From Pseudisothecium myosuroides (lineage: Eukaryota > Streptophyta > Bryopsida > Hypnales > Lembophyllaceae): a stretch of DNA of 64,000 nt. Every line of letters begins with the position of its first letter. Position 1 is the stretch's first letter. A program made the position numbers and the translations under genes. Shown here piece after piece: positions 26,770-56,629 of this stretch. Under the pieces are notes generated by a model, which saw only the letters and a list, made by a program, of their open reading frames with translations, made no database searches and was not told where the DNA came from. The DNA is taken from NCBI GenBank assembly GCA_951799445.1, contig OX637288.1, positions 7,566,501 to 7,630,500 on the forward strand. The letters are read 5' to 3'.

Positions 26770-26995
26770 AATGACATGGAAATTTGGTTTGCTCTATGAT
26801 GTTGTAAACTATTACCTACACCTATGGAGAAAATTTTAAACATTTAAAATATATTTTGTATTTTATAAGAATTTTTACAACCTTTTCTTCAAGTTTTCAT
26901 GATAATTTTATATCTTCACAAACTTAGAGTCTAAGATTTTAGAACTTCTAAAAGAAACATAGTTGCATCTTTGAAAAATAAATTTCATGTGTTAA

Positions 26996-27914: not shown

Positions 27915-27918
27915 TTAA

Positions 27919-30689: not shown

Positions 30690-31197
30690 AATGATTGGTT
30701 GATTTTTGCGCCATTTTGGTTGTTTTATGTTCTTTGGGGGAATACTTTAATATTAGAAAAATATTTTCTTTCAAAAAATGGTCAAAGCATACGCCTTTAT
30801 GAAGATGATATCCCAAGAAGGAAAAACATAGAAAAATTCTCCAACTAGAAAACCTATAAAAGTCTAAAATCTCAAAAAAAATAGGTATTTTAACATTTTA
30901 ATTTGTAAAATACAGAAAAATTCTCCAAATAGAAAACTTAGAAAAGTTTAATATCTCAAGAAAATAGGTGTTTTAATGTTTTAATTTATAAAAATAGAAA
31001 ATACCCTAATTGAAGTAAAAAATTGAAATAAAAAATTGAAAAAAATTGAAAAAAATTGAAATAAATAGGAAAAAATTGAAATAAAAAATGAAAAATAGCC
31101 TAATTGTGAAGACTTGATGGAGAAGGGATTTCAATAAACAAAAATGAGCTTGAAACCATCTTCAATGTTTAGAAGTGTACATGCTAGGGAGTCATTA
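30690..31197. repeat. Left half of a GTGATTGCAAG-family element split by the 22-kb element
   Basis: Sequence from about 30690 parallels the left half of the 26050 element: TTCTTTGGGGGAATACTTTAA, then TATGAAGATGATA, then GGAAAAACATAGAAAAATTCTCC. It also contains a local duplication of the CATAGAAAAATTCTCC block and an A-rich AAAAATTGAAATAAA simple repeat (about 31015-31100). The homology resumes at 53133, on the other side of the large element. Confidence 0.6.
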
Positions 31198-31232
31198 TGC
31201 CATATTTAACTACTTTTGGAATTTACGGGGAA
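31198..31232 (+). repeat. Left terminal inverted repeat of the 22-kb element
   Basis: TGCCATATTTAACTACTTTT followed by GGAATTT. It pairs with 53098-53132. The first internal palindrome (31257-31279) follows 25 bases further in. Confidence 0.75.
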
Positions 31233-31256
31233 TTCTGGACTTTGTGAAGGTCCTGT

Positions 31257-33303
31257 CCATCGGGAGATCTTCCCGATGGTATGTACAATGAGTCCGTAAT
31301 GCCGTTCAAAGGAGATTTATATCGCTTTGGGATGCTAAGTGGTCTAGAGATTTCCCGATGCAAGGAAATATAATCCTTCGGGATAGAGTGTTCGAACAAA
31401 TCAATGAATTTGAGATGATGTCAACTCCGACATTTGCTGTAAGCGGTACATTTGTATCCGGGGTTGCATTAATATGCGACATCACAGATCGGGAGAGCTC
31501 AGAAGATACTTCCCAAAGTATCACATAACACAAAAGAATGGATGAAGCAACATAATGCAATTACAGACATTTGGTAAGGTGTAATCACAGTCAGATAGAA
31601 AAGGTGGATTCGCCACTTATATAATCATTTGGATGCAACAAACAGGTGATAAATAACCCAGCTAGTCCACTTCCAACGACATGTTTTTTGGTGCCCAAGA
31701 CCAATCAAAAGGCGGTGCTATAATGTGCGGACGATCTAACTCTACAGGATCTACATCATCCCTCACATGCAACGCCGGTTGAAGCAAGTGCGGACGTTCC
31801 CAATCAAGAGGATCTAGGACAAGCATTACAACACTGTTATTCAAGAGTACCCTGCGCGTCCGAGGAATGTTCAAGACAGTCTTCAGTATTGCACGACGAT
31901 GGGGATACACCTGGTTCTTCCGTGGATTATCAGACCCGGCAAAAAATAGAAACCTTGACAGAATTTCCGGTGGTAGAATACGTCGAAGAAGAGCGGCCAG
32001 TGTTGAAGGTTGCATTGCGGACCACAAACCACAGTGAGTTTCTTGAACGAAATGTCGGAGAAGACCACCGAAGTCGGGCCGAATTTCGATATTCTGTGGG
32101 AGATCCGCCACACCGCCCTTCACGCAAAGATCCCCTGTTAGTACTAAGAGCATCGCCTTCTGCAAAGACCAAGTAAGCCTCAGCACCCAGACATGTACAT
32201 ACAGAAAACAACGTCAATTGATCGTGAGATCCCCCGACCAATATGCAATACAACAAAACCGCTAATTGAAAATACGCATGGGTAGTTATTTGAAGAACAA
32301 CGACTGAATGTCTTATTTGCTGCATAGTACAAGGAAATTAGCAATACTTCTACGGTGTCACTGCAGCCCAGAATACAGCACTAACAAGGGATGCAGATTT
32401 AGAATTCGCGTCAAATATAAAAAAAGGTTTAGGGTGACATACTAGAAGACCGAAAATACTCGAGCAAAGGAAGTTACGTAGCAAAAATTCAATTGCATTC
32501 GATTGAAGCAACAAAAATGGACATTACATAATCCGCCTAAGACTAATAATTCGATGCAAGGGAAAATGATCGTGAGATCTTCCGATCAAGCCGAAGAGAG
32601 AGGTCAAAATTATCAATTTCAAATCCGTACTTCAGCAAACCGGAATTGTAAGAGAACTCCCAAACAATCAGTAGAAGCACAACTACAACTTCACTGTCAT
32701 CCACAAGTACAAAAACAATATCACGGGACAATACAAGGACAGAAATGACATTTCAATGTTCACACGTCACGTCGTATTGTGCGATCTCCTGATGAAGCTT
32801 GCCGCGCAGGATGATGACGCCCAATGTTAAAATCTAATGAAGTGTTCAAAAAATTCCACTCTTCCGAGTAATATGATAAACAATTTCAAAACCAAATTTA
32901 GATTAAAGCTGCAAACGAAGAGTAAGAAAACAATTCTAAGTGAGGGTCATGCACCGGAAATGCATTCACATTAGATTTAAAAGACAAGGATAAATGCCCA
33001 GAATAGTCCGATCTACCAATAGAATCCACTTCCACGGTATACCATTAGATCTCTAGATGTGCATGCACGCGGATTAATAGTCAAGGTCGAGGTGATCCCT
33101 TCGAACTCATAATTATCTTAATCAAAGGCATTTAGGAAAAAAATTTATTTTCACATTTACTACGAGGCTGAATCAATGCCTCCTACAAACAAAGAATGTC
33201 CAGTATTTTGAAAATGCATTTACAATATTTACAATATGTTCAAGAGTTTTAAGCTACAAACAATAATATGCACGCAAAAAGGAGATCATGAGATATCATG
33301 ATG
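31257..33303. repeat. Palindrome cluster 1 (5 copies) near the left end
   Basis: Copies lie at about 31257-31279 (CATCGGGAGATCTTCCCGATG), 32221-32237, 32568-32587, 32781-32794 (degraded) and 33284-33303 (ATCATGAGATATCATGAT). Each is centred on GATC or GATAT with TCG-type outer bases. Confidence 0.8.
31662..32186 (-). pseudogene. Second HAD/NIF-like domain, degenerate
   Basis: A 174-codon minus-strand frame aligns by eye with the HAD domain at 33983-33331. It has Arg-Pro-Asp-Phe-Gly-Gly-Leu-Leu (compare Arg-Pro-Asn-Val-Gly-Gln-Leu-Leu), Leu-Trp-Ser-Ala-Met (compare Phe-Trp-Ser-Ser-Met), and Arg-Arg-Val-Leu-Leu-Asn-Asn where the other copy has a Val-Leu-Leu-Val-Asp-Asp motif. The nucleophile strand reads Val-Leu-Thr-Gly-Asp-Leu, so the catalytic Asp is lost. 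A likely acceptor, GGTGCTGAG|, precedes it near 32185. It is either a duplicated last exon or a second, decayed gene. Phosphatase activity is not expected. Confidence 0.55.
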
Positions 33304-33330
33304 AAGTCCGTCAAGGAAGAAAAACCAAAA

Positions 33331-33983
33331 CTAAACTACTGCCCTCAAAATGTCAGAGCCCGGTCTGGTCAATGGGACCGCCGGTGTCAGACCATTGTGG
33401 AGCGGATGCTTCTTGACATACGCCGGCACAGCTTCCTCTGACTTAAACAGACCTGCGAGCCAAGGACTGAGCACCCCCACAAGGTACTGCTCTTTCCAAT
33501 CCCCTTCAAATTTGCGGGGGAAAATGGCGCTATGACAATCGTTTAGGAGGTTTTTAAGTGGATCGTCATCAACGAGGAGAACATTCTCCGTTGACCTCAA
33601 ACCCAGCTTAGTGGCGAAATGATTTAGATCCTTCAAGAAGTAGGGCCTGTCCGGGTGTTTGGGGTCTCTGTAGGACGACTTTGTGCAGTCTTCGTGCGTG
33701 AGAACAGGCACGTGCTTCGCCTTAACAGACGTCCCTGGCAGCATTTGATTCAATACCTTCATCACATTTGCCAGTGTCATACTGCTCCAGAAAGCAATGT
33801 TTGCATGTCTGTGCACAAAGTCAAGTAACTGACCAACATTCGGTCGAAGTGTTACGATGCGTCTGTTCAACTCATTGAATGACCTGTGAATAAGAACTCC
33901 ATTAAGGTCAAAGACCACATAATACCGCCGCCTTTCTACCTGATTCGACGACTTCGCCACCGGTTCAGCAGGCACTCGGAAAA
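33331..33983 (-). pseudogene. Last exon: HAD/NIF phosphatase-like domain (DLNG type)
   Basis: The acceptor is TGTATTCTGTAG|TTTTCC, preceded by a 92-nt intron. The exon itself is fully open to TAG at 33331-33333. It carries the FCP1/NIF core in order: nucleophile strand Val-Phe-Asp-Leu-Asn-Gly, Arg-Pro-Asn-Val-Gly, Trp-Ser-Ser-Met, Lys-Asp-Leu, Leu-Val-Asp-Asp-Asp-Pro, and Ala-Ile-Phe-Pro-Arg-Lys-Phe. Canonical family members dephosphorylate Ser in the RNA polymerase II tail using Asp-x-Asp. Here the second Asp is Asn, so binding without catalysis is possible. It is the best preserved exon of the gene. Confidence 0.8.
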
Positions 33984-34075
33984 CTACAGAATACAAGAGA
34001 AGCACAGAGTCAGTGACCGGCCAATTCAAGATTTGTTATCTTGTATGTACATTGACAATAATGTAGGCATGTTAC

Positions 34076-35858
34076 CTGCGGGAGCTCGGACGCTACAAGC
34101 TGGCGACCCTTCCCCCCCCCCTTTCGTCGCCCAATCGTCTTCTTTCCCTCTCGCCGCCGCTCACTGATCCTTCCCCCCTCCTCTCGACGAGCATTCACCC
34201 CTTTTCTCTCTCGTCGGTGCTCACAGGTCCTCTTTCCCCCTCGTCAGCACTCACAGATCCCGTCTCAAGCTCGTCGTCGCTCGAAGGCACCACCCTTCTT
34301 CCTCTAACGCCGAGTTCCACTGCCTCCCACTCTTCGTCTGCATCAGGTGGATCCCCTCCTTCATACACTGCACGCGGACCATCCTGAAATATCCATTTAA
34401 AGACGGGCTTGTAAAGGAAACAGTTTGCTTGCCTTATGGATTCCAAATGAATTTTCTTGTCGATATCCAAACGCATCTTCCCATAGTGGTTTAGACTCGG
34501 TAAATGACCAAATGCTCTCATACGATCAACAAGACAAAACTTCATTATTTCTTCGGCCTTGTAAGGTAAGGCCTCCAAAACTTCGTCAGAATTGCACTCA
34601 CCGTCATCAGGAACCACCTCTCTTGCAACCTTTAGTGGAACACTGGAGGCCAGTGAAGCAATGTCGACAATCCTCGCCCGCCCTATGACAGGTTTACTCT
34701 TCCTTCTAGGAACAGGTTTGGGACTCAGGGGGACCAAGTCAACAAGGGTGTCGTTCAGTACAGCAACCGTGATGCCCATCGGCGGGAGCAATCGCTCCGG
34801 CATCGTCGTGGGATCCCCCGACGAAGACAATGCAACCACTCCTTCCTGGTGTTCAACCCCCTCGCTCTCTACTGGATTGCCATGTTGAATTGAGACCACT
34901 GACTCATCAACGATCGTGGGATCTTCCGATCCTTCAGGTCTCGGTGTCCGGCCTTGGTCATCCTTCCCTGCTCCACGTCAAGGGACAGCTAACTCAGTCT
35001 CAACAGGTAATGCATGGCTCGTCGTGGGATCCCTCGATGCAGGTTTTCTAGTGATACCCTCCGCGTGTTCCCTCTCCGGGGTAGGTTCGGAGTCACTGTC
35101 CCGCCTCCCGACATCAGACTCTTGCGTCATCGTGGGATCCCCCGATCCGAGGTGGTCATCATCCCCCTTCGACTCTTTCCTCCCCTCGCTGAGGTCGGCC
35201 GCATCCTCCCCGCTCCTCACCAGTGACTCGTTCGTCATCGTGGGATCCCCCGATTCTGGTTGGTGAGTGTCCCCCAGGGTTAATAAGACGAGGTCCGACA
35301 GCTGTCTATCAGCTCCTGAAGCACGAGATGCCTGCGCATCCTCCTGTTGCGGCTGAGTCGACTTGTCAGACTTCGACGGTAACGGTCCCAAGGCACAAGT
35401 CAGAAGCGTGTTTGCCGCGACTAGTGCTTTGGGATTGGGACTCCCAGTCGGCTTCGCTGGCGACTGTTTGCGCTGCACCAACGACTTACTTGGAGTCCAC
35501 TTCGAGGTCCCTCCCTTCCGATTTTTGCCTGCTGTCTTCCGCACTTGCTTGGCCGCCTTTGTGCTCCCGGTATCTTTTGCAGTGTCAGGTTCCTTGATCG
35601 CTTCTTACGCGGCTTCCTCTTGGATATCCTTGGGTCCGTTAATTGGATCCCTGAATTCACTTCGTCTGACGACCCGCTCGATATTGGAATTACAATTTCT
35701 TCAGCTCGTAACGGCTCTGGAATACTCTCATGCTGCTCTGTCAGCTTTTCTAGCTCCGCCTGTGCCGAATGAACTTCGGGAACTTCGTCAGCATCCTCCG
35801 CTGTACTTGGCGGATCAATCAGCTGCTCTCGCCGGGGGGAGGGAGTCGGAGATTTCGC
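34076..35858 (-). pseudogene. Acidic low-complexity exon containing five in-frame palindromes
   Basis: The exon starts after the acceptor CTTTCTCGCAG| and ends at CGCAG|GTAAC. It is rich in Glu, Asp, Ser, Pro and Lys. Five palindromes at 34803-34824, 34911-34930, 35021-35039, 35128-35147 and 35236-35255 are read as Ser-Gly-Asp-Pro-Thr-Met, Ser-Glu-Asp-Pro-Thr-Ile or Ser-Arg-Asp-Pro-Thr-Thr. A degenerate 30-nt tandem repeat (GAGGGGGAAAGAGGACC type) lies at about 34110-34260. A frameshift near 35600, TGA at 34978-34980 and a frame change in the G-rich repeat break the frame. Confidence 0.65.
34803..35255. repeat. Palindrome cluster 2 (5 copies) within coding sequence
   Basis: Each is a near-palindrome of the type CATCGTGGGATCCCCCGAT, spaced by 80-110 bases, all read in the same codon register on the minus strand. 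Confidence 0.85.
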
Positions 35859-35940
35859 CTGCGAGAAAGGCAATATCCCACCACATCTGAGCTCAGTTTG
35901 CCCTCCCAGATTAGCATGCGAGAGATATACGCTGCCCAAC

Positions 35941-35959
35941 GTCCGGAGATATCACGATG
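35941..35959. repeat. Palindrome copy in intron 35859-35983
   Basis: GTCCGGAGATATCACGATGG. Reading through this 125-nt intron would give a different protein end, but the donor AAG|GTTAGT and acceptor TCGCAG| with phase 0 support removal by splicing. Confidence 0.7.
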
Positions 35960-37750
35960 GTTCAGCAAATAATGCACACTAACCTTAGGGTGCTCAACCG
36001 ACCTTGTTCCTAAACCCGGTCTGTGTTGGGTGATGTCTTCAACTACAACAACTTCATCATCACTCTCAACTTCCTCGTCCTCGTGTTCGGCCTCCGAAAG
36101 AGGAAGGGGTGCCGCCTGCGCATGTTTGTCGTCCCAAATCTGCTTGGTGAAGACCTGACTTAACGTCTTAGCTTCCGCTGAATCTACAACTTCCAGCACT
36201 TTATCACCTTCCGAATACTGAAATACAACAATCGGAAATTAGTGACATTCAAATCCCCGAAATCAAAATGAGATTATCAGAAGAACAAAAGAAAAGACAA
36301 TCGTTGTAGTGCATACCAAGCCCAGATATGTGAACTCCGGACCCCCGTTGACATTGACAAAGACATAGTCGGTGCAAGCTAGTCCTTCGAATAGAATCAA
36401 CGCACTGCTGATCTTCAGATACGGCATCTGCTACCGACGCCAGTAAGGGTAGTCGTCCGGCATATCTTCCGCCTTGTACACCTGAGTGAGGCGGTCCAAT
36501 CCCGGGAAGAAGCTTTTGAAGCAAGTCCGCCGCTTGTGCTCTTTGCTGTGCCCAAAAATGAAGACAACAAAGACATTGAAACCGTCTCCGGCCGGAGCTT
36601 GAGGGAAGAAGTCTTCGGGCCCTGCCATGTAGTTCACAACGTGCCAGTCCCACAACCTAGCTTTGACTTCCATCCTTCGTTTCTCTATGTGAGCCACAAT
36701 CATGTGGAAACCTTCGGCATCTGTGAGGAGAACGGCGGCAGAGCGGGCTACGACTGTCTGGTCCTGCGGATCATAGTACTCCAGAGCGTCAAAGAGTCTC
36801 TTCAACTTCCGCTCTTCAAGAATTTTGGCGCGACACCCGCAGGACGTTGACTCGAACATGAACCAGATGTACAAGTGCTGCTTCTTCTTTCCCCTCCACG
36901 CTATGACGTCCCCTGCTGCCAAGGTGGCGCTGATGTCCCAGCTGCTTTTGTCCATGGTTTTACAGAGATAGTGCTCTGAAAATCCACGTGCATTTGCCTG
37001 CACCGATTCCTCCTCCGCCGTCAGCTTGAAATACGACTCTCACATATGGATTACCGACTGCGGAAGGTCAGCTGGATCGAACGTCCTGTTGAGATTTCTC
37101 GTCCGGTCCTGCAACCACTTCTTTCCAGCAGGGGTTTCCATTGCCTTGTTCACCCACATATCCACATCCTCATGCTGGATGTTCCTTTCCGTCGCAAACT
37201 CGACCTACAAAGAGTCCGGGTAAGGCTCGTACTCCACCATCCTCACGGGCAGCAGATGACCCTTGTAGTGTGACAAGAGTTTGTTCTTCATCGCCCTGAC
37301 CAACCGAATTTTGGCGCCGGCGTCAGCAAGAGAGATTATGCGTTTTCCACCTCTCTGTGATTTCGACTTTGCGACGGAGGTCTTCATGCTGATAACTTGG
37401 ACTTCGACTTTATCCGCAAGGAAATTGATGTCCTCCGGTCTAAGTCCGTAAAGGGGCTTGAAGTCGTTTGCCGCCAACGGTTTGCGATCCGTACTCCCGG
37501 ATACATTGACCAGCCCCGCCACGTCGGGAAGGAGACCTGCCATGAATCTCTCCTCTATCTTGATCCATCTCTGAACATCAGTGTCGTTCTCCAGGAAGAG
37601 TAGAGGGATTCTCAGTTCGGCAATGTCTTTCGCCTTTGCTCCCGCAAATATTGTTGCCATCGACGGCTGAAACGCCTGCCCAACAAAGGAGTAACAGTCA
37701 GTACGCGATTCGTAGACAGACCACGTGAACACAAGAAGTCCAATATACAG

Positions 37751-38070
37751 TCGTGCGATCCCACGATCAGTCAGTTACCACGAGGAAGTCGTTTAGGCAA
37801 CAGGCAGTCGTGAGATATCACGATGAGCCACTATCTTCTACATGCACAATTTGAAAACACCAAGCACTGAACCCCCAGCACAAAAAACTAAACTAGCGAC
37901 ATCTGGTATTTCATAACTTAACGTCGTGGGATATCACGATCTCCTCATTCTAACGTAGAACTACCCCGTATCGCAAAGCCAAGACTTAGTCGTGGGATCC
38001 CACGATGATGAGGTTCTAACGTAATTAAGGTCTGAGGTGTAGTGCAGGACCATCGGGAGATCCCACGATG
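37751..38070. repeat. Palindrome cluster 3 (5 copies) in intron 37676-38135
   Basis: Copies lie at 37751-37767, 37807-37824 (TCGTGAGATATCACGA), 37923-37940 (TCGTGGGATATCACGA), 37990-38007 (perfect TCGTGGGATCCCACGA) and 38052-38070. The intron otherwise has no protein-like sequence. Confidence 0.85.
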
Positions 38071-39562
38071 TTTAGGTAGAGGACACTCTGATGACCTAAA
38101 AACATTAAGTTTTCCTACTCCGGCGTCATTCTTACATTGTACTCTTGCGAGTGTGCTCTGCCCAATAGTGCTGGCTGTGGACTTCCCATACTCCGCTACT
38201 TGATTCTCGCGTTCAGCAGCTGCTTCGTGAAGTTCTGCTCCTTCTGTTCGCCAACAACATCCTGGTTCAGCGCCCGCGAGAAGTGCACTAGGTCTTCGTG
38301 GTGATCTTTGTCCGTCCACACAGGTAAAATATTAAAGGTGGAGGCTTACTTCTTGTCCTTCTCGGGAATCACACCAAGCCTAATCAGGTCCTTGAATGCC
38401 TGGACAGTGTGTTGGCTCCCTATTATGTAGTAGTGCGTCTTGGGGTTTTTAAAGATCTCCTTCTTCGGCGCTTGCTTCTCATAGTGTGACACTACCTGCG
38501 TCGGGCCGTAGGGTCCCGCTTTAAGAGGAAGCACTGTTATGACTCTATTCTCTGAGTCATAATCAGGTGTGATTCGTGCCTTCCTCGTTAGCGCATCAAG
38601 CCGCTCTGCCTGAATTCCCCTGTACACGAGCAGTGCTACAAGTGCTTGGTGCAGATAGTCATAGTACACGCGGATGAGCTCTCCTTTGCTGTCACAGATT
38701 GGTTTCCTGCCCCATTTGTACAGGCCACCGAAAGAGTTCTTGTACAGGGTCCTCATCGCATTCATCTCTTCCAGTGTCATCTTCTTCACGTCTGCCTCCC
38801 CTAGAGCAACAGCCCTGTGAAGCGGAAGCGGGGTATCCGATTTTTTCTTCTTTCCGGATGTCCCTGCTGCGGCATTCTCTTCGTCCCCGGGAGCTCCAAC
38901 TGCAGACTTCCTCTTCCTGGTCTTCTTTTTGGGGGACGGCGTGGGAGCAACCACTGTCACGACTTTCGGCCGAGCGTTTACATCTCGTAAGTCTTCCATG
39001 ATTATGTCCCACTGGTTCTTGAGCTCCTTAGGCTTCCATCGAGGCTTAGACGTGTCTTTGCACATCAGATGTGACCTTGCAGTCACAGACTCGCACAGAG
39101 TGAGGCTGAACTTCGCGTAGTCAAGGATCAGCCCAAACGTTATGATCTCCCTGGAAAGGGGAACCTTCTCCTCTACAACTAGGAGCGCTGTGTCTTCATC
39201 AAGCCCCTTCATTTCAAGTACCCTCAGTCCGGCAGTTGGGTGCCCCATTGTCCCATTCACCAGCGTGGGAAGAATAGTGGCGGAGCCGTCACTCTCTGCT
39301 TTCCAGGCGATTCTCCAATGTGTAATCTGCTCGTCGCATCGGAAAAAGGCTTGTGGTGGATGTGGACCTGTGTACTCCAAAGACGTGATGTAGCAGTCAA
39401 TGTAGGTACCAAGCTTCCTGGGTGTCAGTTCTTCTGGACCTTCAACGACTTGCATTTCACTGCAGCATGGTAGAAAGAGAGGTTAGTTTCCACATTGTCC
39501 GATAGAGCAGAATGATGGTGGTGCGATATTATTCCCATTCTAACTTTAATTTTTATCCTTAG

Positions 39563-40233
39563 TCGTGGGATCCCACGACGGATGTTATGAAAGAGAAGGA
39601 ATGGTTTCGTGATCATTTTGATGATCTAGTTTCACAAATTACCATTGTCGTGGGATATCACGATCGGTTACATTCACGGATAGTAGTGGGCAGGAGGTTA
39701 CTGCATCTCAACTCACTAACTGAAGGCGTCCCAGCATATGACGACGACACCAAATAATATAGAATGGATATTGGAATATCTTAGAAGGTGATTGGTGATG
39801 ATCTGTGAAACTACTGTTTGTCGTGGGATCCCACGATTGATTGTTCACATAATCAGCGCTATTTGTTAACGCGCATGCATCTCAATTTCTCTACCCACGC
39901 TAGACTTTCTCGTCGTGATTTCCCACGACGGTTTAGTACTTGAATGCTCTATGTAGGTGGCCTTCTAATTGTTAAGTCTGGGTCAGGCGCGGTCTTTACT
40001 ATCTTCCATTGGGGGATCCCACGATGGGTTACTAATCCGCTGCCTGGTCTGTGCCTAATATGTGGTCTGGGTTTAGATTGCGTCTTCACATCTTTTCATC
40101 TGGGGATCCCACGATGGGCCAGAAACCCTAGAACTCGTGTGGCTGCACAGTGGTGGGCGGCTAGGGTTTCAAGTCAGGGATCCTACGATGCTCGAATCTA
40201 CACAGGGATTGCCCTGTCGTGGGATCCCACGAT
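39563..40233. repeat. Palindrome cluster 4 (8 copies) in intron 39460-40492
   Basis: Copies lie at about 39563, 39647, 39821, 39912, 40010, 40101, 40175 and 40216, spaced 40-175 bases. Those at 39563, 39821 and 40216 are perfect or nearly so. Plus-strand open frames across this intron are side effects of the stop-free palindromes. Confidence 0.85.
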
Positions 40234-42311
40234 GCACGGTTTTAGGGTCACTATCCCCGGTAACAGGGTCACGTACTCATTACCGTGTGTTCTTCTCGGC
40301 ATATGTACTACCGTATTTCTCGGCCATGTTTATAACAGCGACTATGACAGAGGCTCTACTACCCTCGTTTTCAGCAAAGTGCGTACCAATGCAATTGCAA
40401 ACAGCCATACCCTAATTATTAGCAATGTTTATAACCTAGACATTGCAAGCAAGAAACGGAAAGTAATGAGAATATAGTTCAAAGTAACTTACGGGTCCTT
40501 CCAAACTGGGAGGTCTGCTGTACGCTGGGATGGAGCTGCTGCCATCGTAGCTTCCGCTTGCACGGGTCCGGCCTTGTTTTCAGCTACTACAAAAATGCCC
40601 TTCCGCTCTTCAAAAGGCTGCTGCATGAAATTCAAATGCAGAAGAAATTGTAGCTTCAATCATTCACTAAGAATCACAAACTCCTAACTTGTTTCTTCAT
40701 GACTAGCCAAGTGAATTTAATTGAAGAGAAGGTAAACTTAAATCTAATGTGACGGACTAAGTAGCCTATCGCACAGAAAACAAGCGTTTCTGATCATAGT
40801 CATAAAATCCCTGCACAAACCATGTTCCTAATATCATTCACAAACAAGTACTGTCTAACTAAATAACATACAATGAACTCTTCGCTCCATTCCTCTTTGG
40901 GAGCAACATTCCCGTTCCTTACTTCACTTTGCTTCAATTCAAACACTCACAGCAGTCCATACACATTGAACTCTAGTTCGTGAACTACATCAAGATTACC
41001 ATTCTAGGATCTACAGTGATGAACCATGAACTACGATGCGTGAGGAGAGCCTACACCTGCAAGGAGGGCGAGTGCCATACAGCCATTGTATCCATGTACT
41101 AGATTCATTTGACAAACTTGAATGGGATCAATTCTTTCCAAGCCTAGAAGCTAAACTCCAGAGCAAACGCACACCTCCATGCGATCACAATTCTACAACG
41201 AAGAAGTCAAATAATGAACCTCACCACCAGAGAACTACAAAATCAAAATGCAGGTTTTGAGGTTGGACTACAATGAACTAACCTGTTCAATGAGGTGGGT
41301 GAAGTCCAGCACCGTGTTGTTTTTCTCGCGCACAGGTCCGGACGCTTGCGCACCGCCTTCGCCAGGAAATGCTTCACGCACTACCGCACTCCACCACAAA
41401 AATTCACTGTCGTTCTCCGCGCACACACACTCCGCCAGCAAAATTTGAATACGCTCCTCTAATGTCCCTCGCCGCGCTCGACTCCGCAAACAAAAGTTCA
41501 ACGCCCCGCCAACCAAAGAAACTCGACACAACCCAACTCACTCCAAATGTAAAGCTAGAGACAACGAAACTCATGGACTGCAGCAACCCGAATGAACGCG
41601 CGAGGAAGGAAAGCGGAGAAGCGCACGACGTCGGGAGAAGAGGGATGCGTGCAGACATCGTGGGGAGGAAAGAAAACGAGGAGAGGAAACCTTCGGGGGA
41701 GTGTGCTGACGTGGCACTGTCAGGTGCAAGACGGCGCAGGTCATGACTGCCCACCCTCCTCATGATTACTGACATCATGAGGAGGGCTTGACTAGAAGTC
41801 TTAAGCTAAATAATCACTCATTACACGAAATGCTGAAATTAGGTCGCACACTTGCACCTCACTAATTTCCTGACATTCGATAATTACTACAAACATTTTT
41901 TTTGTTTCTCTATAAGAATGCACTATTTGTTATTTATTCGTTATTTGTTTTTATGCACATTGTTGCTATTGGAACTCTTGAAACTCCATGTCTACAAATA
42001 AAAATAATTGTAGAAACGTTTATTTACTTTGATGGCTTGTAAAGTAACTTTGTTGAAATAAGGCAACCTAGTTTTACTATTTTAAATGTCGGTATGGAAA
42101 AAAAATGTACAAGTTGTAAATACTCCGCTCATGAAGTGAAGAGTCATGAGCGAAAAAAGTCCATGCTACGTTTTCCCAAACTTACCACGTAACCTAAAAA
42201 AAAAACCTCGGTCTTGCGGTTCAAAGACCCTTTATTCCATAAATCATGCATGATGTTGTACGAGTTAATTTTAACAAAAAAAAATGTAGTTTTACTATTT
42301 TAAATACTGTT

Positions 42312-42857
42312 CACGTGAATTAGAATTTTGCAATGGGCAAGAAGTGAAAATAGTGGTGGAATCTAAATCATAAGAGCAATTCCAACTTCCACAATAGAAT
42401 TTTATGCATGCATGTATGAACCGTTCATGACGTTTTTAAAATGAAGCCATTCCATGGCAGGGCCTGACTGTTTCATTCCCAAATTTTTTTACTTCACGTG
42501 AATTAGAATTTTGCAATGGGCAAGAAGTGAATATAGTGGTGGAATCTAAATCCTGAGAGCAATTCCAACTTCCACAGTAGAATTTTATGCATGCACGTGT
42601 GAAATTCCATGACATTTTTAAAATGAAGCCATAGTTCAATGGCAGGGCCCATTTCATTCCCAATTTTTTTATTTTCATGTGAATTAGAATTTTTCAATGG
42701 GCAAGACTAGAAAATAGTGGTGGAATCTAAGGCTGGAGCAATTACATTTTTCTAAATCAAATTTTATGCATGCATGTATGAAATTTCATGACTTTTTAAA
42801 TATTATTTAAGCAGTTTCAAGCCATCACGCATTTCATTCCCGATTTTTTTTTTCACA
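42312..42857. repeat. Three tandem copies of a repeat of about 182 bp
   Basis: Units begin CACGTGAATTAGAATTTTGC (42312), CACGTGAATTAGAATTTTGC (42495) and CATGTGAATTAGAATTTTTC (42676). Each contains AATAGTGGTGGAATCTAA and TTTTATGCATGCA and ends in a T-run. The third copy is the most diverged. It lies in the central spacer of the 22-kb element, where it could serve as promoter or replication DNA, but nothing proves this. Confidence 0.85.
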
Positions 42858-43574
42858 TCGGTGGAGATTGTTCAAATAACAATAACAAATAACAATATTC
42901 CGTACATCGTTGTCAAATAATGATGTAGATGTATACCACGTTCGATCATTTCAAAAATCCAGATGAAGATTGCATGACCTACAATATTCTCATGAATGAC
43001 ATGATTCCAGGTTTAAGCATTCATCACCCGTCAAAGTGCATTAACAAATTTGAAAGCATTTAACTCATTAAATCATTCAGACTGAGATTTAAAATACAAA
43101 ATAAATAAATGGTTCAGTTTGTTCTTTGTTCCATCATGATTGCACATCCAAAGTCCTTCACAAGGGACTTTTTTGCGTTTCCCTCTCTCACTTTCCCCTA
43201 TGTAAACAACAATCTTATGACTTTTCATTGTGTCAACGGATTGCGATACAAGGAGAAGTCATGGATTGCCGTTTATGCAGGAAAAAATGAGAGGGAAACG
43301 CAAAAAAGCCCCTGGTGCTTTATTGCAAAATTCGTAGATGAAATAAAAATTGTGTCAATCATTGTTTAATCCGTAAAGTCCCATATTAAACCATAGGATG
43401 TTGTACTACATAACAAGAATTATATATGAAATCAATCTGTTAACTGACATTTTTAATTAGCAATATTGAGTTAGATTGAATTTTAAGTTTATATGTTCCC
43501 AGTCGGAGATGACGTAAACTTAATTGAGGAAAAAATTGGAAACAAATAATCAGTGTCATTTTCATTTTTCATAA

Positions 43575-43795
43575 TACCCTAAACCCTAAAAGCCGTAAAC
43601 CATGAACTGCAGACCCTGAAAACGTTAATGTAAAGCGCTGCCACTGTATACCCTAAATCCTATTAAACCCTGAAACCCTGAACCCTGAAACCAAGAACCA
43701 TGACCTTGAAACCGTGAACACTACACTACAACATGTACCCTAAACCCTATGACCATGGATGGTAGACCCTATGACTGTGGACCCTAGACCCTAAG
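43575..43795. repeat. Degenerate plant telomere-type repeats (CCCTAAA)
   Basis: ATACCCTAAACCCTAAAAGCC followed by many decayed units such as ACCCTGAAACCCTGAACCC and TACCCTAAACCCTATGACC. The CCCTAAA unit is that of most green plants. The position is interstitial, inside the 22-kb element. Confidence 0.75.
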
Positions 43796-44100
43796 ATTGC
43801 ATTCATTGGAATAGAAAATAACAAATATGAACATTCGAGAGTTCAAAATTTTTGTTGATTCTTTTTGTAAGTGAGGTGTTCCACATGTTTCAGGTGCTCA
43901 AGTTTTTGGGTTCACGAGATTTTGTACAGTTCGTTTCTGTAGGATACGTATAATCAGGTCGTGTAGGGGAAGAATTTCGAGTATTGATCGGGGAAGCGTG
44001 TGACATTCTGTGAAGTGAAAGTCTTCAGAGTTTGATCCGCTTTGGTCAAAGCATCATTGACTCCTAGAAAACGGTGCAACGATACCATCCTTGAATGCGG

Positions 44101-45979
44101 CAAATTTCAAAATGTCAGTGAAGAATCGGAATTTCAGTGAAGCCTGGATTTGCGAAGTTCCAGTCAGAAAGTCAAGAGCCCCACGCCCTCCCTCCTTGTA
44201 GTTGGAGATGCGTGGAATTTGAGAATGCAATCAACTTCCGAAGTGAAGGACCGCACGTACCCCCCAGCCGTTGTTGATTGTGGCACGGCATTCAAAAACG
44301 CATCCAACATTCAAAATCAAGAATCGCTTGGTGATTTCAAAATTCGCGGCGGGAATTCAGAGCTGAAGAATTCCAACCAGCCACCTGGTTCATAACCCAA
44401 AAAGAACTTGGAGCTTGCTCTTTTCGATTGCACACGTGAACAGGCGGAGCAGGCTGCGGAGTGGCGAGTGGGTGTCTGCCGACGTTGGCGACAGAGTGGG
44501 CGTGGAGGCGCACGAAGTTCTGACCGAGCCAGTTGCTGCAAGATAAGAATGCATCCCTTGCAAGTGTTATGCGATTCCGAATGTCGAGGATTTTGTAGTT
44601 GAATTGACGCCACTGCACTCTGTCACAAACTGAGGATGTCGTAGATTGAGAGTGAAACGGAGTCTGACTGCGATAATTTTCTTCGCGCATTGGTCTCATT
44701 TTGCGAAAAACTCACATGCTTAAGGGATCACCATGTTGTGGTGACATCGAGGTTCCTTTTGAATCGCGGGACGGCACTGCCCTAAAGGCAAGTTGATATG
44801 AGAACCTTGTACGTGGATGACAACCGGTCAGAACGTCTTCACAAAGTAGTGAAATTAGGTTGCGTTAGGAATTAGGCGGACTTACATGAGGAAAACCCAG
44901 CCATCAAATTCAACTACTTCTAAGAACGTTTCCTATTGTACCCATGGAGGTTTAGGAGTCTGAATTACAGCAAAATCCACTTTAAAAGTAGAGAATTTTT
45001 GTACAGTAACTGAGAATAGTTATAGAGTATCGAATGTCATGAAACCAATGACAGGAAACCTAATTTCACGATCTTTTGTAGATACGTCGGTCTACGACAG
45101 TAGAATACATGTATATATCCAACATACGTAAGCATCATGGGATCCCACGATCTCCGCTTATTGAGCGTGGGCGAGACCTCTCAGTCTTCGAGTATAGAGA
45201 TATCGCGGTCTGGTAGTCAAGGGATCTCCTATAATTTCATCGTGGGATCCCACGATCGATTGAACCTTGGCTATGGCCTTCCGGGTGTACGTCTAGGTGC
45301 CTTACTTATCGATGACCGTCATACTCCTCGTCGATCTTGTATAATCATCGTGGGATCTCACGATCACATTTTCGATTGGCACCAGGTTCTCCTTCTTGGG
45401 GGGTACCCTAACCTAAACACTCTTTCGGAATTTACAGGATACCGAACTCGTGGGATCCCATGATTGATTGATAATATGTCGGGGACTCATCAGAGTGATT
45501 CAGTTTGACCCACTACTTCATTTGTATTTCTGTAGCGGTCTGTGTGATCCCTTAGGAGGATCTTGGAATACTGCGATCTCTGGTTTAAGTGATTAAGCGC
45601 CAAGAGTGTCGTGGGATCCCACGATGTACTAAACGTTCTTTGGTTAATGTCTTCTAAACTTCTGCGACGTTTTCCTGGATGCCTTGGCTTCTTCCCAGTG
45701 GTTCTGGGACGGCCTTCTTGAGATCGCACTATTGCGTCTGGGCTTTCGAACTTCTTGTTGACAGTAACTAGATTCACTTGTTCATGTTGCGTTGCTGTGT
45801 GATCGTGAGTTCCCACGACTATACAGACGTTGATGCTTCTGTCCTTCATGTCGTGAGGTTACAATGCCATGAATGCAGCGCTCTTCTGTAGACATGCCTA
45901 ACTCCTTGAATGTATGATGTACAGGTTTTACAGATCGTTTTAATCTCGTCCAAGGGATTCGATAGAGCTCACTCTGACA
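44101..45979. other. Upstream region of the putative transposase gene
   Basis: 44150-44650 is GC-richer with open frames on both strands but no recognised protein. From 45130 to 45820 there are seven palindromes. A 5' exon or untranslated leader of the plus-strand gene may lie here, with an acceptor candidate TGTACAGGTTTTACAG| just before 45930. Confidence 0.4.
45134..45819. repeat. Palindrome cluster 5 (7 copies) upstream of the putative transposase
   Basis: Copies lie at about 45134, 45218 (degraded), 45238 (CATCGTGGGATCCCACGATCG), 45347, 45448, 45608 and 45802, at spacings of 20-190 bases. Confidence 0.85.
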
Positions 45980-46343
45980 ATGGATTCATTCTGTGAGTCT
46001 GCTGCTGACGCGGTAGTTCCGTATGTGGACGGAACGCATGTAGAGGGTGAATCACAGGATTCCACCGGTGGATATGAAGCGTTTGTGAATGGTGATTGGA
46101 TTAAGCTGTTTGTGCCTGGATTCAGTGAAGTTGGTTCAGGAATCGTTAAAGAGGTTCGTCCCCAGGGCCAATGGCTGGGTGTGCCCATACCTGTTGAGCC
46201 TTGGATTTACATTCTGGTGCGACCTCATTCTATCAAATTAGAATTCCAGGATTGAAATGCTTTCCTTGTCAGAGGGGTATGAACACATTAGAGGATGTTC
46301 AAGAGAATGTAGTGTTGTGGAGAGCCGCCGACGTTGTTAGAGC

Positions 46344-46362
46344 GTCGGGGGATCCCCCAATG
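46344..46362 (+). repeat. Palindrome inside a transposase exon
   Basis: GCGTCGGGGGATCCCCCAATGG is read Ala-Ser-Gly-Asp-Pro-Pro-Met-Asp, the same codon register as the five coding copies in the opposite-strand gene. Confidence 0.75.
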
Positions 46363-47292
46363 GATCCATGTCCGTATATTCGTCAAGGAGCCTGGTTTGG
46401 ACTTGATGTGCATCGGAAGGATGCCGACGGACTCCTTGTTTCCTCGGGTCGTATCATTTGTTGAAGTCCGGAGGATCATTTCCAAGAGGAGACACTTGGT
46501 GAAGGTTTCATAGGTGTGACAGTCCTCGATGTTTTTGTAGGTGACACCGAAGCCATAATGTCTCACGACAAGTGGCCAATTTTGGAGTGTTGGTTTCCCA
46601 ACGGTCGTTCGTTGAAGGAGACAGTGGATCATTTTGCTGCCATTCCCGATATCGACGACCCTCTCGCTTACCTCGGAGGTAGAATGAAAGCACCATACCG
46701 GTTTATAGTTCGCAAACCCAATCTGGAACTGAAGGAATCGCAGTACTCCCGCAAAACGACAGACGAGGAGATTCGGAAAGTCAGCTCGGAGAAGTGCTGG
46801 AGACGTCTGTGTTGTCAGCATTATAACCAGGAGTTCACGCTGTTAGTAAGGCAAAAGTACTACTTGAAGTCGTGTGACGAGCGCCGTGAATATGGAATTG
46901 GAGTGGGAGGACAACTACACAAAAGGTACGGGGAGTGGAAGCGGAAATACGTCACGCTAGAGGGAGTTGATGTTTGTGGCAAGGTGTGGTACATAATTCA
47001 CGGCATCCCGAAGTCCACTTACCACAGTTACATCAAGATGTACAACGACGGCATCGTATCAGGGACGCACGGAAACAAAGGGGTTAAGCGCCCGCGGACT
47101 CGGATTGTTCAGGTCGCTGGGACTATGAAAGCCATTATTGACAAGAATGCTGATCAAATGGCCCACCAAATGCGCGGCATCGGAAACGGAAGAACGGACA
47201 CTCTAAAATTCCTTCCTCCCGGAAGAAATTGGAAACGAGTCCGAGCAGACGCCAACGAGGTAGTGCCCCTTATCTCTTGTCACTGCTTTATT

Positions 47293-47340
47293 GATCGTGA
47301 GATCTCCCGACGAGATCAATGATCGTGAGATATCACGATC
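47293..47340. repeat. Two palindromes in intron 47260-47424
   Basis: ATCGTGAGATCTCCCGACG (47293-47311) and GATCGTGAGATATCACGATC (47320-47340), eight bases apart, within the intron separating the two large transposase exons. Confidence 0.85.
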
Positions 47341-49569
47341 ACTATTCTGGTGCATTGCTTGTCATTTGCATTCCTTCCCCTTCGCTCGTACCGATGCTTA
47401 AGCGTACCAATTCTGGATGTGTAGTTAAATGCCGACTACGGTCTGCCGCCCGTGAGCCAGTCGACTATTAGTAGACTCAAGTGGGAGCACTTCAACAACG
47501 TCTCCATTAAGCCTGTCGGAAGTTCGTTTGCAAAATGTACTACGTGCAACGACCTACAGCAGTTTATTCTGAAGTCTCCGAAAGGAAGCCCCGAGTACGT
47601 GGAGTTCGTAAAGCAACGGACTCATCATCTGAATCACCAAGCTTCTTGCCGTCGTTTGTATGCGTCTTGGCGTGAGGAATCCAAACGAGATCCTCGAAGA
47701 ATTTTATGTATAATTCACGACAAGATGGATACATCCAAGACGGCTCTACCCAGACTCTGGATGACAATGAAGGCCACGGCCAGTTTGGGGCAGCTTTCGA
47801 TGAGCGTTACTGGAATGGTAGCTCATGGCCATGGTGACGGTGCTTACGCCCATTATGCTCCATCTTGCTGGCCGGCGGACTCCAACTTCACCATTTCGTC
47901 TTTGGCGAGGTTGTTGCGCCGGCTGGAGGGTCCACCTATTCGAGAGGCAGGCGACCTCTTTCCATATCCGCCTGCTAACTCATTGTTCGAGGCACTGCTT
48001 CGAGGAAAGTCTAGATGTATGGACAGCCTAACCCTCACCGAACCTGGAGCTCGGGTCGAAAGTACCCCTCTTCCTGAAAATTTATATCTTCAGCTTGACA
48101 ACTCTGCCAAGGATAACAAGAACAAATATTTGATGGCGTTCTTATCCTTGCTCACTGCACGAGGTGTCTTCAAGGAAATTCAGGTTGGGTTTCTACTAGT
48201 CGGACACACTCACAAGGACATCGATGCATATTTCAGCCACCTTTCCAAGGCCCTGAAGACCAAGAACACTTTTGTCGTCGCTGACCTCATGAAAGCCTTC
48301 ATGCAGTCCCAAGAACTGTCATTTATGCCGGAGTTCATACAGGAGGTGAGGGATTTCAAGTCGTTCGTGGAGGGTTACCAATGCGATCGCGGGGAAAAAT
48401 TAATTGGATTGGGGGAGATGCACCTGTTCAAGTTCTACGTGGACACTGATGGGGTCCCCGTCATGAACTTCAAAAGGTCAGTAGTTGATTTGAACTGGTT
48501 GCCGTCGAAGAAACCTTCTGAACGCATTTGGAAGACTAATAGCAATGGTCGGCCCATGCTCCCTCACAGCTGTCCAAAGCCTGTTCCGTTTAAGCCCATG
48601 TGGGGCAGCGAGGTTCCGATACCGCATGGAAATCAAGAGAAGGCAAGGAAAGCGGCGCGGAAAGCTACCTTGAACAAGGGTTTCATGCTGGTAGGACTCG
48701 AGAAATACATTCAGTACTGGCAATACGGTATTTCTAGATGCGAGGGATTTGCAACTGCGTTCGGTCCATACGTGGATTACTGGAAGTGTGTTCTTGATGA
48801 GCTGAAGGAACCACTATCCGAGTGTCCTCCGGAGTTGGTGGAAGGCTTCTGGCCACAACACGATTGGAGGGTGGCGCGTAATGGAGTCCCTCGCCCAGGA
48901 TCGATGGTGAATCCCATGGACGTGATTCCGGAGGAAGAAGAGGAGCCGGAGCCTTACTGCGGCCCTGCAAATGAAGCGCCAAGGGAAAGCTCTAATCCAT
49001 GGCTAGACATACGACCAGGCTGTTGGGTACTTGTCAGACCGGAAGTCCCGGAATCATGTGCTGTTTGGCAGGGAAGAGCATTGTCTACTGTATGCAGAGT
49101 GGAAGGAGATGTGAATAACGGGAAGTTCTTGCTTCAGTACTGGCGACCCGATAACTCCGAAACGAGGCTGGAATTGATTTATCGGAATTGCTGGTACGGT
49201 AAATGGGTCGTTGAAAAAAGTCCCCCCACCTGGGTGGACGCGGGTGCAGCAGTGTATGCGAATTGGTCCAGGAGAGTGGATCAAAAATCACGGACGATTC
49301 CTCAGAAGAGTAGGGAGGCTACCTTAGTGAATTTGAATCGGGCAAACGTGGTGGACCCATGATTGAGTGCCTAGTCCGGTGTCCTGTTGTATATCAGTAC
49401 ATATTGTAAAAACATATTATTATATGTTTTATTCAATAACTTCACAATGACGCTATGGGTTAAGAAGCTTAAAGGTGATGTTATCCTATAGAAGTATATA
49501 AGTGGATGGGTTTGCCTTAAACCTTCATTCAACCTTATTAGTAAGTTTGTTTTCTACTTTGTAGTTCAA

Positions 49570-50016
49570 ATGTCGAATTGGAGGGGTTTTTCTGATGCTC
49601 AAGATGAAGAGCCACAACCGGACGCTGAGTTTGAGCTTTCACTATCACAGTTGCCAGATCAACCTCTTTTGCAGCGAGATATTAGGCGTCCTTAAGATGA
49701 AGCCGGACCGTCCAGACCACCAAAACAACCTCGTGTGGAGCGGCGATGGCACGGTAATCTTGATGCTGATGCTCGAGCGTTGGTGATCTTACTTCAAGTG
49801 GGATGTGTTGAACTAGGCACTCGTGAAGTGACGTTCGAGGCGAGTTATGAAGGCAAAAACCAAGACCACTATTTTTGTATGGTTCGGCCTGTGGAAGGTA
49901 GTCGTGGCCACCAACGATGGTTGGAAGGGCCTGTTAATCCTTTGACAAAGGCTAAGCGTGCAGAATATGTTGCTGCTACCGTCAAACGTATTCTCAAGTT
50001 TCTTCAAATGGAATAA
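49570..50016 (+). pseudogene. Small gene downstream of the putative transposase, unknown, one in-frame TAA
   Basis: ATG at 49570 opens a 148-codon frame to TAA at 50014-50016, interrupted by TAA at 49693-49695 (explainable as CAA to TAA). The first 60 residues are acidic and Gln/Pro-rich. The rest has a mixed pattern with Val-Thr-Phe-Glu-Ala-Ser-Tyr-Glu-Gly and a helical Lys/Arg-rich end. No family is recognised. It is more AT-rich than the transposase exons and no palindromes lie near it, so 49.4-51.7 kb might be a later insertion into the element. Confidence 0.45.
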
Positions 50017-51690
50017 AGTTTTGATTGGAGCTTTGTTTTTTACCTCTAGTTGATATTTGTTAAGTTTTAGTTCTTAAATTATGTTTTGAGTGTTTATTGA
50101 AATTACAGTGAGTGATTGTATTTATTAGAAGTAAATTGAAATTAGAATTTTAGTTAAGAAAGACTACAGTTGGAGTGAGTGTGAATGGGGAAGTGGTTAG
50201 AATCTTAGGTGGGCCTTGGTAGAGGCATGGGCTGAAGTGCCCCCACCTCTCACCTTAGATGGGGAGGAAAAAGGGGAGAAGGAATCTTAGTGTGTGGTTT
50301 TTGAGAGAGAGAGAGAAGAGAAAAGTGTGGAGAGAAAGGCTGAAGATTTCGATCGGCCATATCTTTTGTTAAAAGAATGTTTTTGAAATGAAAATTTGAG
50401 AGTTTATTCCTTATGATTTTGCGCTTCTAAAGACACTTCATTTGCTTGATTTGAAGTTGTGAGCAAAAAGTTACAAACGAGTGAGTGGAAGAAGGTCTGC
50501 TACCACCCGACAAAGAGGAGCAGAGATTCGAGCAGCCACCAAAGTTTGTAGGTTTTGTTTTTCTTCTTGAGATTTTCAAGCATTAAAGAAGTTTTTTTTA
50601 GCTTTTTGGAGACATATCATTTGAAGCAATTGAAGTTGTTTAGAGAAAATTGTGGGTTCTTGAAATAGAAGAGGTCCGCTGCCTTTCTAAAGAGAAGGCT
50701 GAGACTTTGCTTCGCCATAACTCTTGGACAGTACCTTATTTTTCTTTGAGATTTAAGGAGAAGTTAGTTTGTAAGTTTTAGCTTTCCAAAAAGTTATTAA
50801 ACTTGAAATTTGAATAAAAAGTGAAGGAGTTGTAGGGTCTTGAAGTAAGAGAGGTCTGCTGCCTTCAAATGAGAAGGCCGAGACTTTTCTTGTTCATAAC
50901 TTTTAGACAGTAACTTAGTTTAAATTGAGATTTTGAGGGGTGTTAGTTTATCTTATTAGCTTTCCAAATTGCTATTGCACTTAGCATTTGGAGCTTGGAG
51001 TCATATTTGGGAGTAGATCAAAGAACGCAGTCATACTAGATTGTAGTTTCATACTTCTTTCTATATTTCTTTGGGAGACTTGAAGACTTGAAGAGTCCAA
51101 GATATGAAGGTTTGAAGATTCAAGGACCGTACATGCCGAGGACCTATCCGTGTGTTGTGGCTTGTGGCTTTGTCATTCCTGGCCAGCTTTGGAGGCCCGT
51201 TGTCTTTAATTGTTGTTCCAATCCAGCTTTGGAGGATCGTTGCATTCAATTCTGCATTGTAAACTTGTTGCAGGCTATTTGGGTATCCAACTAGCCTCTT
51301 TTTGTGTTGTGGGCGACGAAGTGGGATTGATCACCCACATAGTTGAATCTTATGTCGCTCTCATTGGTGAGGCTGGATTAATGACCAGTTGACCAGTGAA
51401 TTTGAAGTTTAGGAGCCCATCATCCGGACGACAGCTCGTGTTCTGTTGTCCCGTTTTACCCGTCCGAAAACTTGTTTCTTATTACACACCCTTACCCAGA
51501 CCCTTTAGAGCCACCATATGATAGGATGGATGAAGATCGAGTGAAGATTCAAGTTTGAAGACTTTGAAAACTTTGAAGACCAAAAGAAGATACAAGTTAG
51601 AAGAATCACCATCGAAACTCTACAACTAGCAGCCAGACACTTCGCGTGTTCTCTAAGCGCACCCCTCTCACCACGACACCGGGGTCGCTA
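50017..51690. other. Non-coding stretch with a near-tandem repeat
   Basis: No gene is supported. Two related units of about 180 bp (about 50640-50815 and 50816-50990) share GAGGTC(C/T)GCTGCCTT, GAGAAGGC(T/C)GAGACTTT and CATAACT(C/T)TT(G/A)GACAGTA. An earlier, shorter relative (GAAGGTCTGCTACCACC) lies near 50490. A GA-rich tract is at about 50308-50335. The layout recalls untranslated parts of LTR retroelements, but no LTR pair was found. Confidence 0.5.
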
Positions 51691-51694
51691 CTGC

Positions 51695-51795
51695 CATCGT
51701 GGGAACTCCCGACGCACTGTGTCGGTCGTCGCGGCAATCGTGAGATGTCACGATGCATTCTGCGGGGCGCAATTGCCATCGTGATATCGCACGAC
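51695..51795. repeat. Three evenly spaced palindromes
   Basis: Copies at 51695-51713, 51736-51753 and 51777-51795 are spaced about 41 bases apart, with related spacers (GACGCACTGTGTC, ACGATGCATTCTGCG, ACGACGCATTCTAC). The local unit itself appears to have been tandemly copied. Confidence 0.8.
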
Positions 51796-51799
51796 GCAT

Positions 51800-53035
51800 T
51801 CTACATCGAGTAAGCGCAGCCGCAAGTGAGGGTTTCGAAGTACAGTCCGTTGAGTCAGTATGACTATTCTTCGATTAATTTTTCAGAGCTGCTTTTTGTG
51901 ACATGTATATGTAAAATAAATCTTTATGAATATATTAATATGTTTATGATTTCTATTCTTTGCGTGCGGCACGGGGGCAATGATTTGATAGCAGAAGCGC
52001 GGGGTGTCTTTCTTCCTCTCGTCTCCTGAAATGGAAGTGGTTTATGTTTGTGTCCGGAACAGAATACATTGCTCGGGTCATACATGCACTCAAATGAGTC
52101 TGAATAATGCATTTCTTTTCTCACAGTTAATCACTGTTGGAATTCTGGTCTTCTAGGTTTTGCATCTTCACAATTATATAGCGGACAACCAAGTACGAAT
52201 CTATTTTTTGCAATGAAAGAACCTTGATGTTCTTTACACAAACTCAAACTAATGTCATTATTTCGGATGGAATATTATGTTTACTTAGCCGTTATTCATC
52301 TTCAGATGTATGTTGAACGTCTGAGCACCTGTGACTCAGTGGTCTACAGTTCTTCAAATGTCACTGTGAGTAAGTTACTGTGATATGCCCCTGTCACTTC
52401 CTCATATCCTGACTACCTTAGCTCCACTATGTTAGCAGTCCATCGGGGGATCTCCCGGTGAATCCTAGAACCGGACTCCTTATTCCCAAGAGCAATTGCT
52501 CATTTGGTAATTGTCAACTGATGTTTGAATTTCAAATCCACTTGTGTGTACTTCCTTTGAACTCTCGGGATACCATATATCTTTGAAAGAATCGCCCCCC
52601 TCGTGCCTTATTGTGAATCATTCTTGATGAACTCGGATATCACTTGCACTTTAGCACAGGAATCAAATTGTACCCCACTTTGACACCAAGATTGTCAGTG
52701 AAGCCGACTCATATTCTACACCCCCGTCAGGGGATCTCCCGATAGAATTATGTGAAGATCAGCGCTCACTGAGGGATTAATATGGGATGGGAGCCATGTT
52801 TGCAACGAGTGGTGGTCATCGGGGGATCTCTTGATAGGTTCTGAGACTTCAGTTGTGCTGTAAATTGGATGCCTAAACTACGGAAACCCAGTCCACAAAT
52901 CTCCCAATACAATCATGTGAACTCTACCACGGATCCGCTATGTTACAACTACACGATTTCTTTCATTTCCAAGCACATGAAGCACTCCCCGACATACTTG
53001 TGGGTGCTGAATTGGATGCATGCAAAGCGTTCCTA
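51800..53035. other. Right subterminal region of the 22-kb element, no gene called
   Basis: AT-rich to neutral sequence with four spaced palindromes at about 52441, 52726, 52817 and 53036 of the CATCGGGGGATCTCCCGGTG type. No open frame is convincing. Confidence 0.5.
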
Positions 53036-53056
53036 TTTCAGGAGATCTCCAGATCC
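52441..53056. repeat. Palindrome cluster near the right end (4 copies)
   Basis: CATCGGGGGATCTCCCGGTG (52441), GTCAGGGGATCTCCCGATAG (52726), CATCGGGGGATCTCTTGATAG (52817) and TCAGGAGATCTCCAGA (53036). These are mostly of the GGGGGATCTCCC subtype, like the copy nearest the left end. Confidence 0.8.
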
Positions 53057-53097
53057 ATAGGAAAACATCAGGGGATTTCACCGCCTCTTTACTTCTG

Positions 53098-53132
53098 GAC
53101 TATTGAAAGTCCAGAAGTAGTTGAATATGGCA
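53098..53132 (-). repeat. Right terminal inverted repeat of the 22-kb element
   Basis: On the minus strand it reads TGCCATATTCAACTACTTCT then GGACTTT. Just inside, TTCTGGACT-ATTGA-AAGTCCAGAA (about 53093-53115) forms a local hairpin that the left end has only in part (AATTCTGGACTTT at about 31231). Confidence 0.75.
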
Positions 53133-53592
53133 TCATTCAACCATATTTGTACAAAATCAACCGGGAAGTCAACGTGGAGGACATAAAATAATTTATTTTT
53201 AGATGCTCCTTTGTAAGAACATGTCCACCTATTGTGGGAATAGAACATAGAATATATCCACCTATTGTGAGAATAGAACATAGAACATGTCCACCTATTG
53301 TGGAAATAGAACATAGAAATTTCAGCTTTAGATCATTAATTTTGGGTACCTAAAAGTACTCAAAATCCCTAACGTTGAAATTGTGACAAATTAGAAAAAT
53401 AGACTTTTAAATAGAAAATTACGTTTTTAATTCCTAAAAAATAATTAATATGATTTCAATGGAAATATACATCTCCAATAAAAAAAATTCAAGGTCATCT
53501 GGTTCATGCTTCAAAAGTTATAACAATTGACAACTCTCTCGAGCTAAGTGTGACATAATTAAGGACCAATGTTTTTTGTAAACATCCTAGGA
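53133..53592. repeat. Right half of the repeat split by the 22-kb element
   Basis: Beginning at the TCATTC target duplication, the sequence follows the right half of the 26050-26769 element: AATTTCAGCTTTAGATC, then TCATCTGGTTCATGCTTCAAAAGTTATAAC, ending GGACCAATGTTTTTTGTAAACATCC where the intact copy has GGACAAGTGTTTCTTGCAATCAC. Confidence 0.6.
53220..53318. repeat. Tandem repeat, 3 units of about 33 bp
   Basis: The unit CATGTCCACCTATTGTGGGA plus ATAGAACATAGAA is repeated three times with few changes, about 90 bases outside the right end of the 22-kb element. Confidence 0.85.
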
Positions 53593-54759: not shown

Positions 54760-54763
54760 TTAA

Positions 54764-55696: not shown

Positions 55697-55700
55697 TTAA

Positions 55701-56625: not shown

Positions 56626-56629
56626 TTAA

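Follow-up and report, generated by a model that had tools for sequence, protein, structure and literature searches.

The window analyzed here is a 64,000-nt stretch of the Pseudisothecium myosuroides genome (GCA_951799445.1, OX637288.1:7,566,501-7,630,500, forward strand), and it carries a large DNA transposon with two divergent multi-exon genes, which we call T (a DUF7869 transposase candidate) and M (its partner, with predicted ParB-fold and NIF/HAD-like domains), together with a family of dispersed palindromes (Table 1). A preliminary description of the sequence had proposed a large DNA transposon that moves by cut and paste and uses a DUF7869 enzyme, and this is well supported: further copies, target duplications, empty sites and a predicted RNase-H-type core all bear it out. 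The two-gene layout of that description was likewise confirmed. Neither gene is intact in the window copy, and some other copies have both open (owing to frame breaks, comparisons between copies leave out the window copy for T, and both the window copy and copy c2 for M).

Table 1. The transposon and its parts, numbered from the first base of the window.
Feature	Position	Strand	Details
Whole transposon copy	31197..53133		5'-ATGCC...GGCAT-3'; 21,937 bp including 2.3-kb nested insertion; ends compared in 20 copies
Target duplication, left copy	31193..31196		CATT, 4 bp
Target duplication, right copy	53134..53137		CATT, 4 bp
Left terminal inverted repeat	31197..31220	+	24 bp
Right terminal inverted repeat	53110..53133	-	
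Gene M exon 5	33331..33983	-	NIF/HAD-like domain, Pfam PF03031
Gene M exon 4	34076..35858	-	Palindromes at exact 108-bp steps: 34806, 34914, 35022, 35130, 35238
Gene M exon 3	35984..36217	-	
Gene M exon 2	36317..37675	-	No Pfam match
Palindrome cluster, first intron of gene M	37751..38068		5 sites
Gene M exon 1	38136..39455	-	Region of ParB-fold domain (IIGGQHT in relatives)
Palindrome cluster upstream of gene M	39563..40232		7 sites
Tandem array, ~183 bp	42310..42853		3 units in window copy; more in six other copies read
Palindrome cluster upstream of gene T	45135..45818		7 sites
Gene T exon 1	45980..47259	+	One base shorter than in six other copies read; in-frame stop
Palindromes in gene T intron	47295..47338		2 sites
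Gene T exon 2	47425..49362	+	DUF7869 domain, predicted RNase-H-type transposase core; open in window copy
Nested insertion	49380..51678		TGTC...GACA; duplication CCGG; absent from six other copies read
Palindromes 3' of gene T	51697..51794		3 sites at 41-bp spacing
Degenerate palindromes, right subterminal region	52443..52834		3 sites

The inverted ends had been placed at 31198 and 53132; they are present on both sides, but each border lies 1 bp further out. The element starts with an A ahead of TGCC and stops with a T behind GGCA, as read in the flanks of 19 further paired copies, and the empty sites of three other copies show that these two outermost bases are part of the element. The two 24-bp ends differ at two positions in the window copy and are identical in copy c10. 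Ends were paired by eye among the 40 scored matches on each side, which gave 20 copies (the other 20 left and 20 right ends are left out of this count; one left end, L058, has no partner among the right ends), and in 18 of these 20 the left and right flanking 4 bases match; with partner-shuffled flanks, agreement at four bases averaged 1.64 of 20 copies and reached 5 at most, and widths of 3, 5 and 6 were each found in 0/20. In three copies (L047, L049 and L055) the joined flanks align through the junction to related repeats elsewhere (74-86% identity), and in these empty sites the 4 bases occur once. The previously proposed 6-bp flanking repeat TCATTA/TCATTC is thus incorrect, and the insertion as such holds, since 18 of 20 copies agree at 4 bp and empty sites span the junction. 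The flanks of the window copy had been said to rebuild a known repeat; searched within the window only, they gave no alignment across the junction, so that their reading as an empty site of another window repeat was rejected. With terminal inverted repeats and target duplications of fixed length, the element has the hallmarks of a cut-and-paste transposon.

Searching the genome (388 Mb, 222 contigs) with both ends recovered further copies bearing the same ends: all 40 scored left ends (the best 40 of 227 first-look candidates) and all 40 scored right ends (the best 40 of 177) are at least 97% identical. The six complete copies that we read span 21.1-21.5 kb and are colinear at about 95-99%, save for the unit number of the 183-bp array. 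A three-gene model was rejected, because the third frame (49571-50013, interrupted by one stop) lies within the ~2.3-kb nested insertion that these six copies lack. Taken jointly, what was observed and the steps with good support make it very probable that the window element belongs to a family of giant autonomous DNA transposons, with near-identical copies, shared ends, 4-bp duplications and empty sites, genes open in some members, and short derivatives.

Exon 2 of gene T matches Pfam PF25273 (E=4e-44) and is open in 33 of the 69 genomic copies scored, counted by eye. T has a conserved acidic D-D-D triad, and a predicted model with a fold match (Foldseek alone was weak) points to an RNase-H-type fold, so that the assignment as an RNase-H transposase with an acidic triad is one of prediction. 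The nearest named relatives of T are found in two mosses, Physcomitrium and Ceratodon, and a liverwort, Riccia. Our search of the open-licence literature found no paper on DUF7869. This domain of unknown function gains a likely role from the anatomy of the element. At 48202-48225 of the window, T reads GHTHKDID, and both copy c10 and the relative P0001 read GHTHEDID.

The partner protein had been credited with a HAD/NIF domain, and this is real: exon 5 of gene M scores 51.3 bits against PF03031, for which the cut-off is 21.8. Phosphatases of the NIF/HAD kind carry a DxDx catalytic motif; DxDx is absent from M, and the position reads DLNGVL, which on sequence grounds makes phosphatase catalysis doubtful. 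The more telling part of M, going by the predicted model, is its N-terminal ParB-fold domain. The model of the M relative P0063 has the fold of a ParB N-terminal domain, with ParB-family chains at structure ranks 1-12 and sulfiredoxins next; Foldseek alone listed a sulfiredoxin and no ParB among 50 rows. By sequence profile, matching to a ParB family reached E=0.011 at best, in 2 of 21, and no ParB family rose above the Pfam cut-off for the M sequences scanned. M is under selection and kept as the partner of T, and the idea that it is unique to this genome was rejected, as exon 1 alone, used as query, found 20 relatives (a query joining exons 1 and 2 gave no match).

The palindromes had been described as a family private to this interval. 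Within the window this stands, as 36 of the 37 sites that match TCGTGGGATCCCACGA (half-site ATCGTGRGAT) with up to 4 mismatches lie inside the element, and the 42 kb of window outside it has just 1; in the genome at large the family also occurs in a short non-autonomous family. At the same threshold, each of seven copies holds 34-38 palindromes, and ten first-order Markov runs simulating a 21.5-kb copy gave a mean of 0.7. Palindromes are found in the upstream regions of both genes, within introns and close to the ends, and the M coding sequence has them spaced exactly 108 bp apart. A reading of these sites in terms of GATC methylation was dropped because several palindrome centers are GATATC. 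The strict 20-bp palindrome has 50 sites in the genome (reversed control, 0), and the three that we opened each lie in a ~250-bp insertion with ends nearly those of the giant element, one of these insertions being nested in another. By eye, a 4-bp duplication flanks 4/4 of the short insertions read. A search with one short copy gave 40 scored copies, the best 40 of 548 candidates, all at least 87% identical. The short copies have no genes; they retain the ends, good palindromes (one or two) and, at ~20-24 bp spacing, additional degenerate half-sites. Placing the 50 strict sites by eye put 28 in short copies (27 in the 40 scored and one more in L112) and 4 within reach of a giant-copy end, with 18 unplaced.

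These features suggest a mechanism whose steps differ in support. There is good support for T acting as the transposase, which would pair the 24-bp ends, cut and paste with a 4-bp stagger, and also mobilize the short copies in trans. That the dispersed palindromes are cis-acting binding sites of an element-encoded protein has moderate support, the strongest hint being that the ~250-bp copies retain ends and palindromes without genes. Least certain is the identity of that protein; M, given its predicted fold and its association with T, is the leading candidate, and we put it forward tentatively as the reader of the palindromes. By analogy with bacterial ParB at palindromic parS sites, the ParB-fold domain of M would load at the palindromes, and loaded M would then mark or bridge the long element, bringing together ends that lie 21 kb apart, or alternatively shield the element from silencing. 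Bacterial ParB carries an arginine motif at the position of GGQH. The likeness to ParB-parS thus consists of the predicted fold of the M domain and palindromic sites repeated in cis; the differences are that this is a eukaryotic transposon, that GGQH stands where ParB has its arginine motif, and that binding, nucleotide use and spreading by M are putative.

The palindromes might also be read by T itself, in the way that the subterminal repeats of CACTA elements are transposase binding sites, with M serving some unrelated role, for example via its HAD domain. The short copies, with ends and palindromes and no genes, would fit this; the clustering of palindromes ahead of the two genes, within introns and in the coding repeats of M, in addition to those near the ends, does not, nor does the conservation of M as a partner under selection, and we hold this explanation to be possible at best. 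Somewhat unlikely, in our judgment, is that M and the palindromes form an anti-silencing system like that of Arabidopsis VANDAL elements, where VANC21 binds a short motif densely arrayed in non-coding parts, often as tandem repeats (PMC5735166). Here too a short motif is arrayed across the element, dense in non-coding parts and also within the 108-bp repeats, and the reader encoded by the element in VANDAL has a candidate here. However, the motif is a palindrome here and is arrayed in a single orientation there; it is also retained in short copies without genes, and M, whose likeness to VANC is one of description only, has a predicted ParB fold. Certain fungal DNA transposons bearing TET/JBP genes likewise have a second gene acting on DNA or its silencing, the partner there being a dioxygenase and here a predicted ParB-fold protein (PMC12730594).

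As to its place among known families, the chances seem to us about even that the element belongs to the Sola superfamily (perhaps Sola1), enlarged by gene capture, with DUF7869 as the Pfam name of the Sola transposase; the likeness was judged by description only. Bao et al., in 2009, reportedly described Sola with a 4-bp duplication and a DDD enzyme, and T, with its D-D-D triad, 4-bp duplications and a Physcomitrium relative, agrees with this. Sola, which has three groups (PMC4455052), has moreover been reported from Physcomitrella (PMC9033089); we found nothing linking Ceratodon with Sola in the open-licence literature. Set against this, curated bivalve Sola1 elements average 5.4 kb (PMC10294476), a quarter of the present length, and the available descriptions of Sola1-3 mention neither a ParB-fold partner gene nor palindrome arrays. 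The earlier proposal of a new superfamily fitting no known family is accordingly not established, its position relative to Sola having been judged by descriptions only. That the element is instead a Polinton, a virus-like element or an assembly artefact, as its size and two long genes might suggest, is extremely improbable: its colinear copies lie on many contigs with exact short duplications, and no DNA polymerase B, ATPase, protease or capsid match was found in the 10 window frames and 3 translated c10 pieces scanned. Polintons (Mavericks) have a 6-bp target duplication (PMC10045372), the width seen in none of the 20 copies.

T relatives are encoded at 15 loci of the genome collection (L096-L110). 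These DUF7869 genes sit on contigs binned as cyanobacteria or other bacteria, and are probably eukaryotic contamination. Eight of the 15 belong to a single bin, labelled Trichormus (one species of this genus takes its name from the fern Azolla), and these contigs are likely host DNA. In five of the eight, an opposite-strand frame upstream of T has a comparable GG(S/Q)H stretch (E from 9e-5 to 5e-3 in a set of 945 frames), and the other three contigs start 500-600 bp ahead of the T frame; a profile comparison of the distant M recovered a further stretch, with the order kept (probability 84%). T from this bin has 25-27% identity in 7/8 contigs (38% over a shorter piece in L104), and a quick tree places it outside the moss group. 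Judged from these sequences, the T-M pair is old. No T or M relative was confirmed among viral contigs. Behind the distant M gene of one contig (L097:845-1255, minus strand), a frame has a stretch, ADIPYG, that looks methyltransferase-like by eye only, and this reading found no significant library match.

A larger picture, which we offer as speculative, is of a deep plant lineage with a two-gene engine, in which a DUF7869 transposase and a ParB-fold clamp loading at dispersed palindromes would form a eukaryotic counterpart of ParB-parS, handling a 21-kb element and mobilizing its 250-bp derivatives. Among the matches listed in our open-licence literature search (titles and abstract starts), no description of this element was found, nor any ParB-bearing paper on eukaryotic DNA transposons. 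The element is an example of cut-and-paste transposition moving 21 kb as a single piece to high copy number, and it links a predicted ParB-fold protein and a palindrome array to a eukaryotic transposon; this pairing is directly testable, and is relevant to the ways in which long transposons join distant ends or evade silencing.

The remainder of the window holds other repeats as well. A transposase gene of the DDE_Tnp_1_7 kind, which we take to be piggyBac-type, lies at 22722-24389 in two successive frames, and a Copia-type retrotransposon remnant occupies 12368-14570 on the minus strand. A duplicated block (1-1621 and 60987-62581, 87% identical) holds an unclassified coding frame. Finally, a ~950-bp repeat has three copies in the window (26992-27918, 54760-55700 and 55697-56629), and the transposon copy L055 is inserted into a member of this same repeat family.
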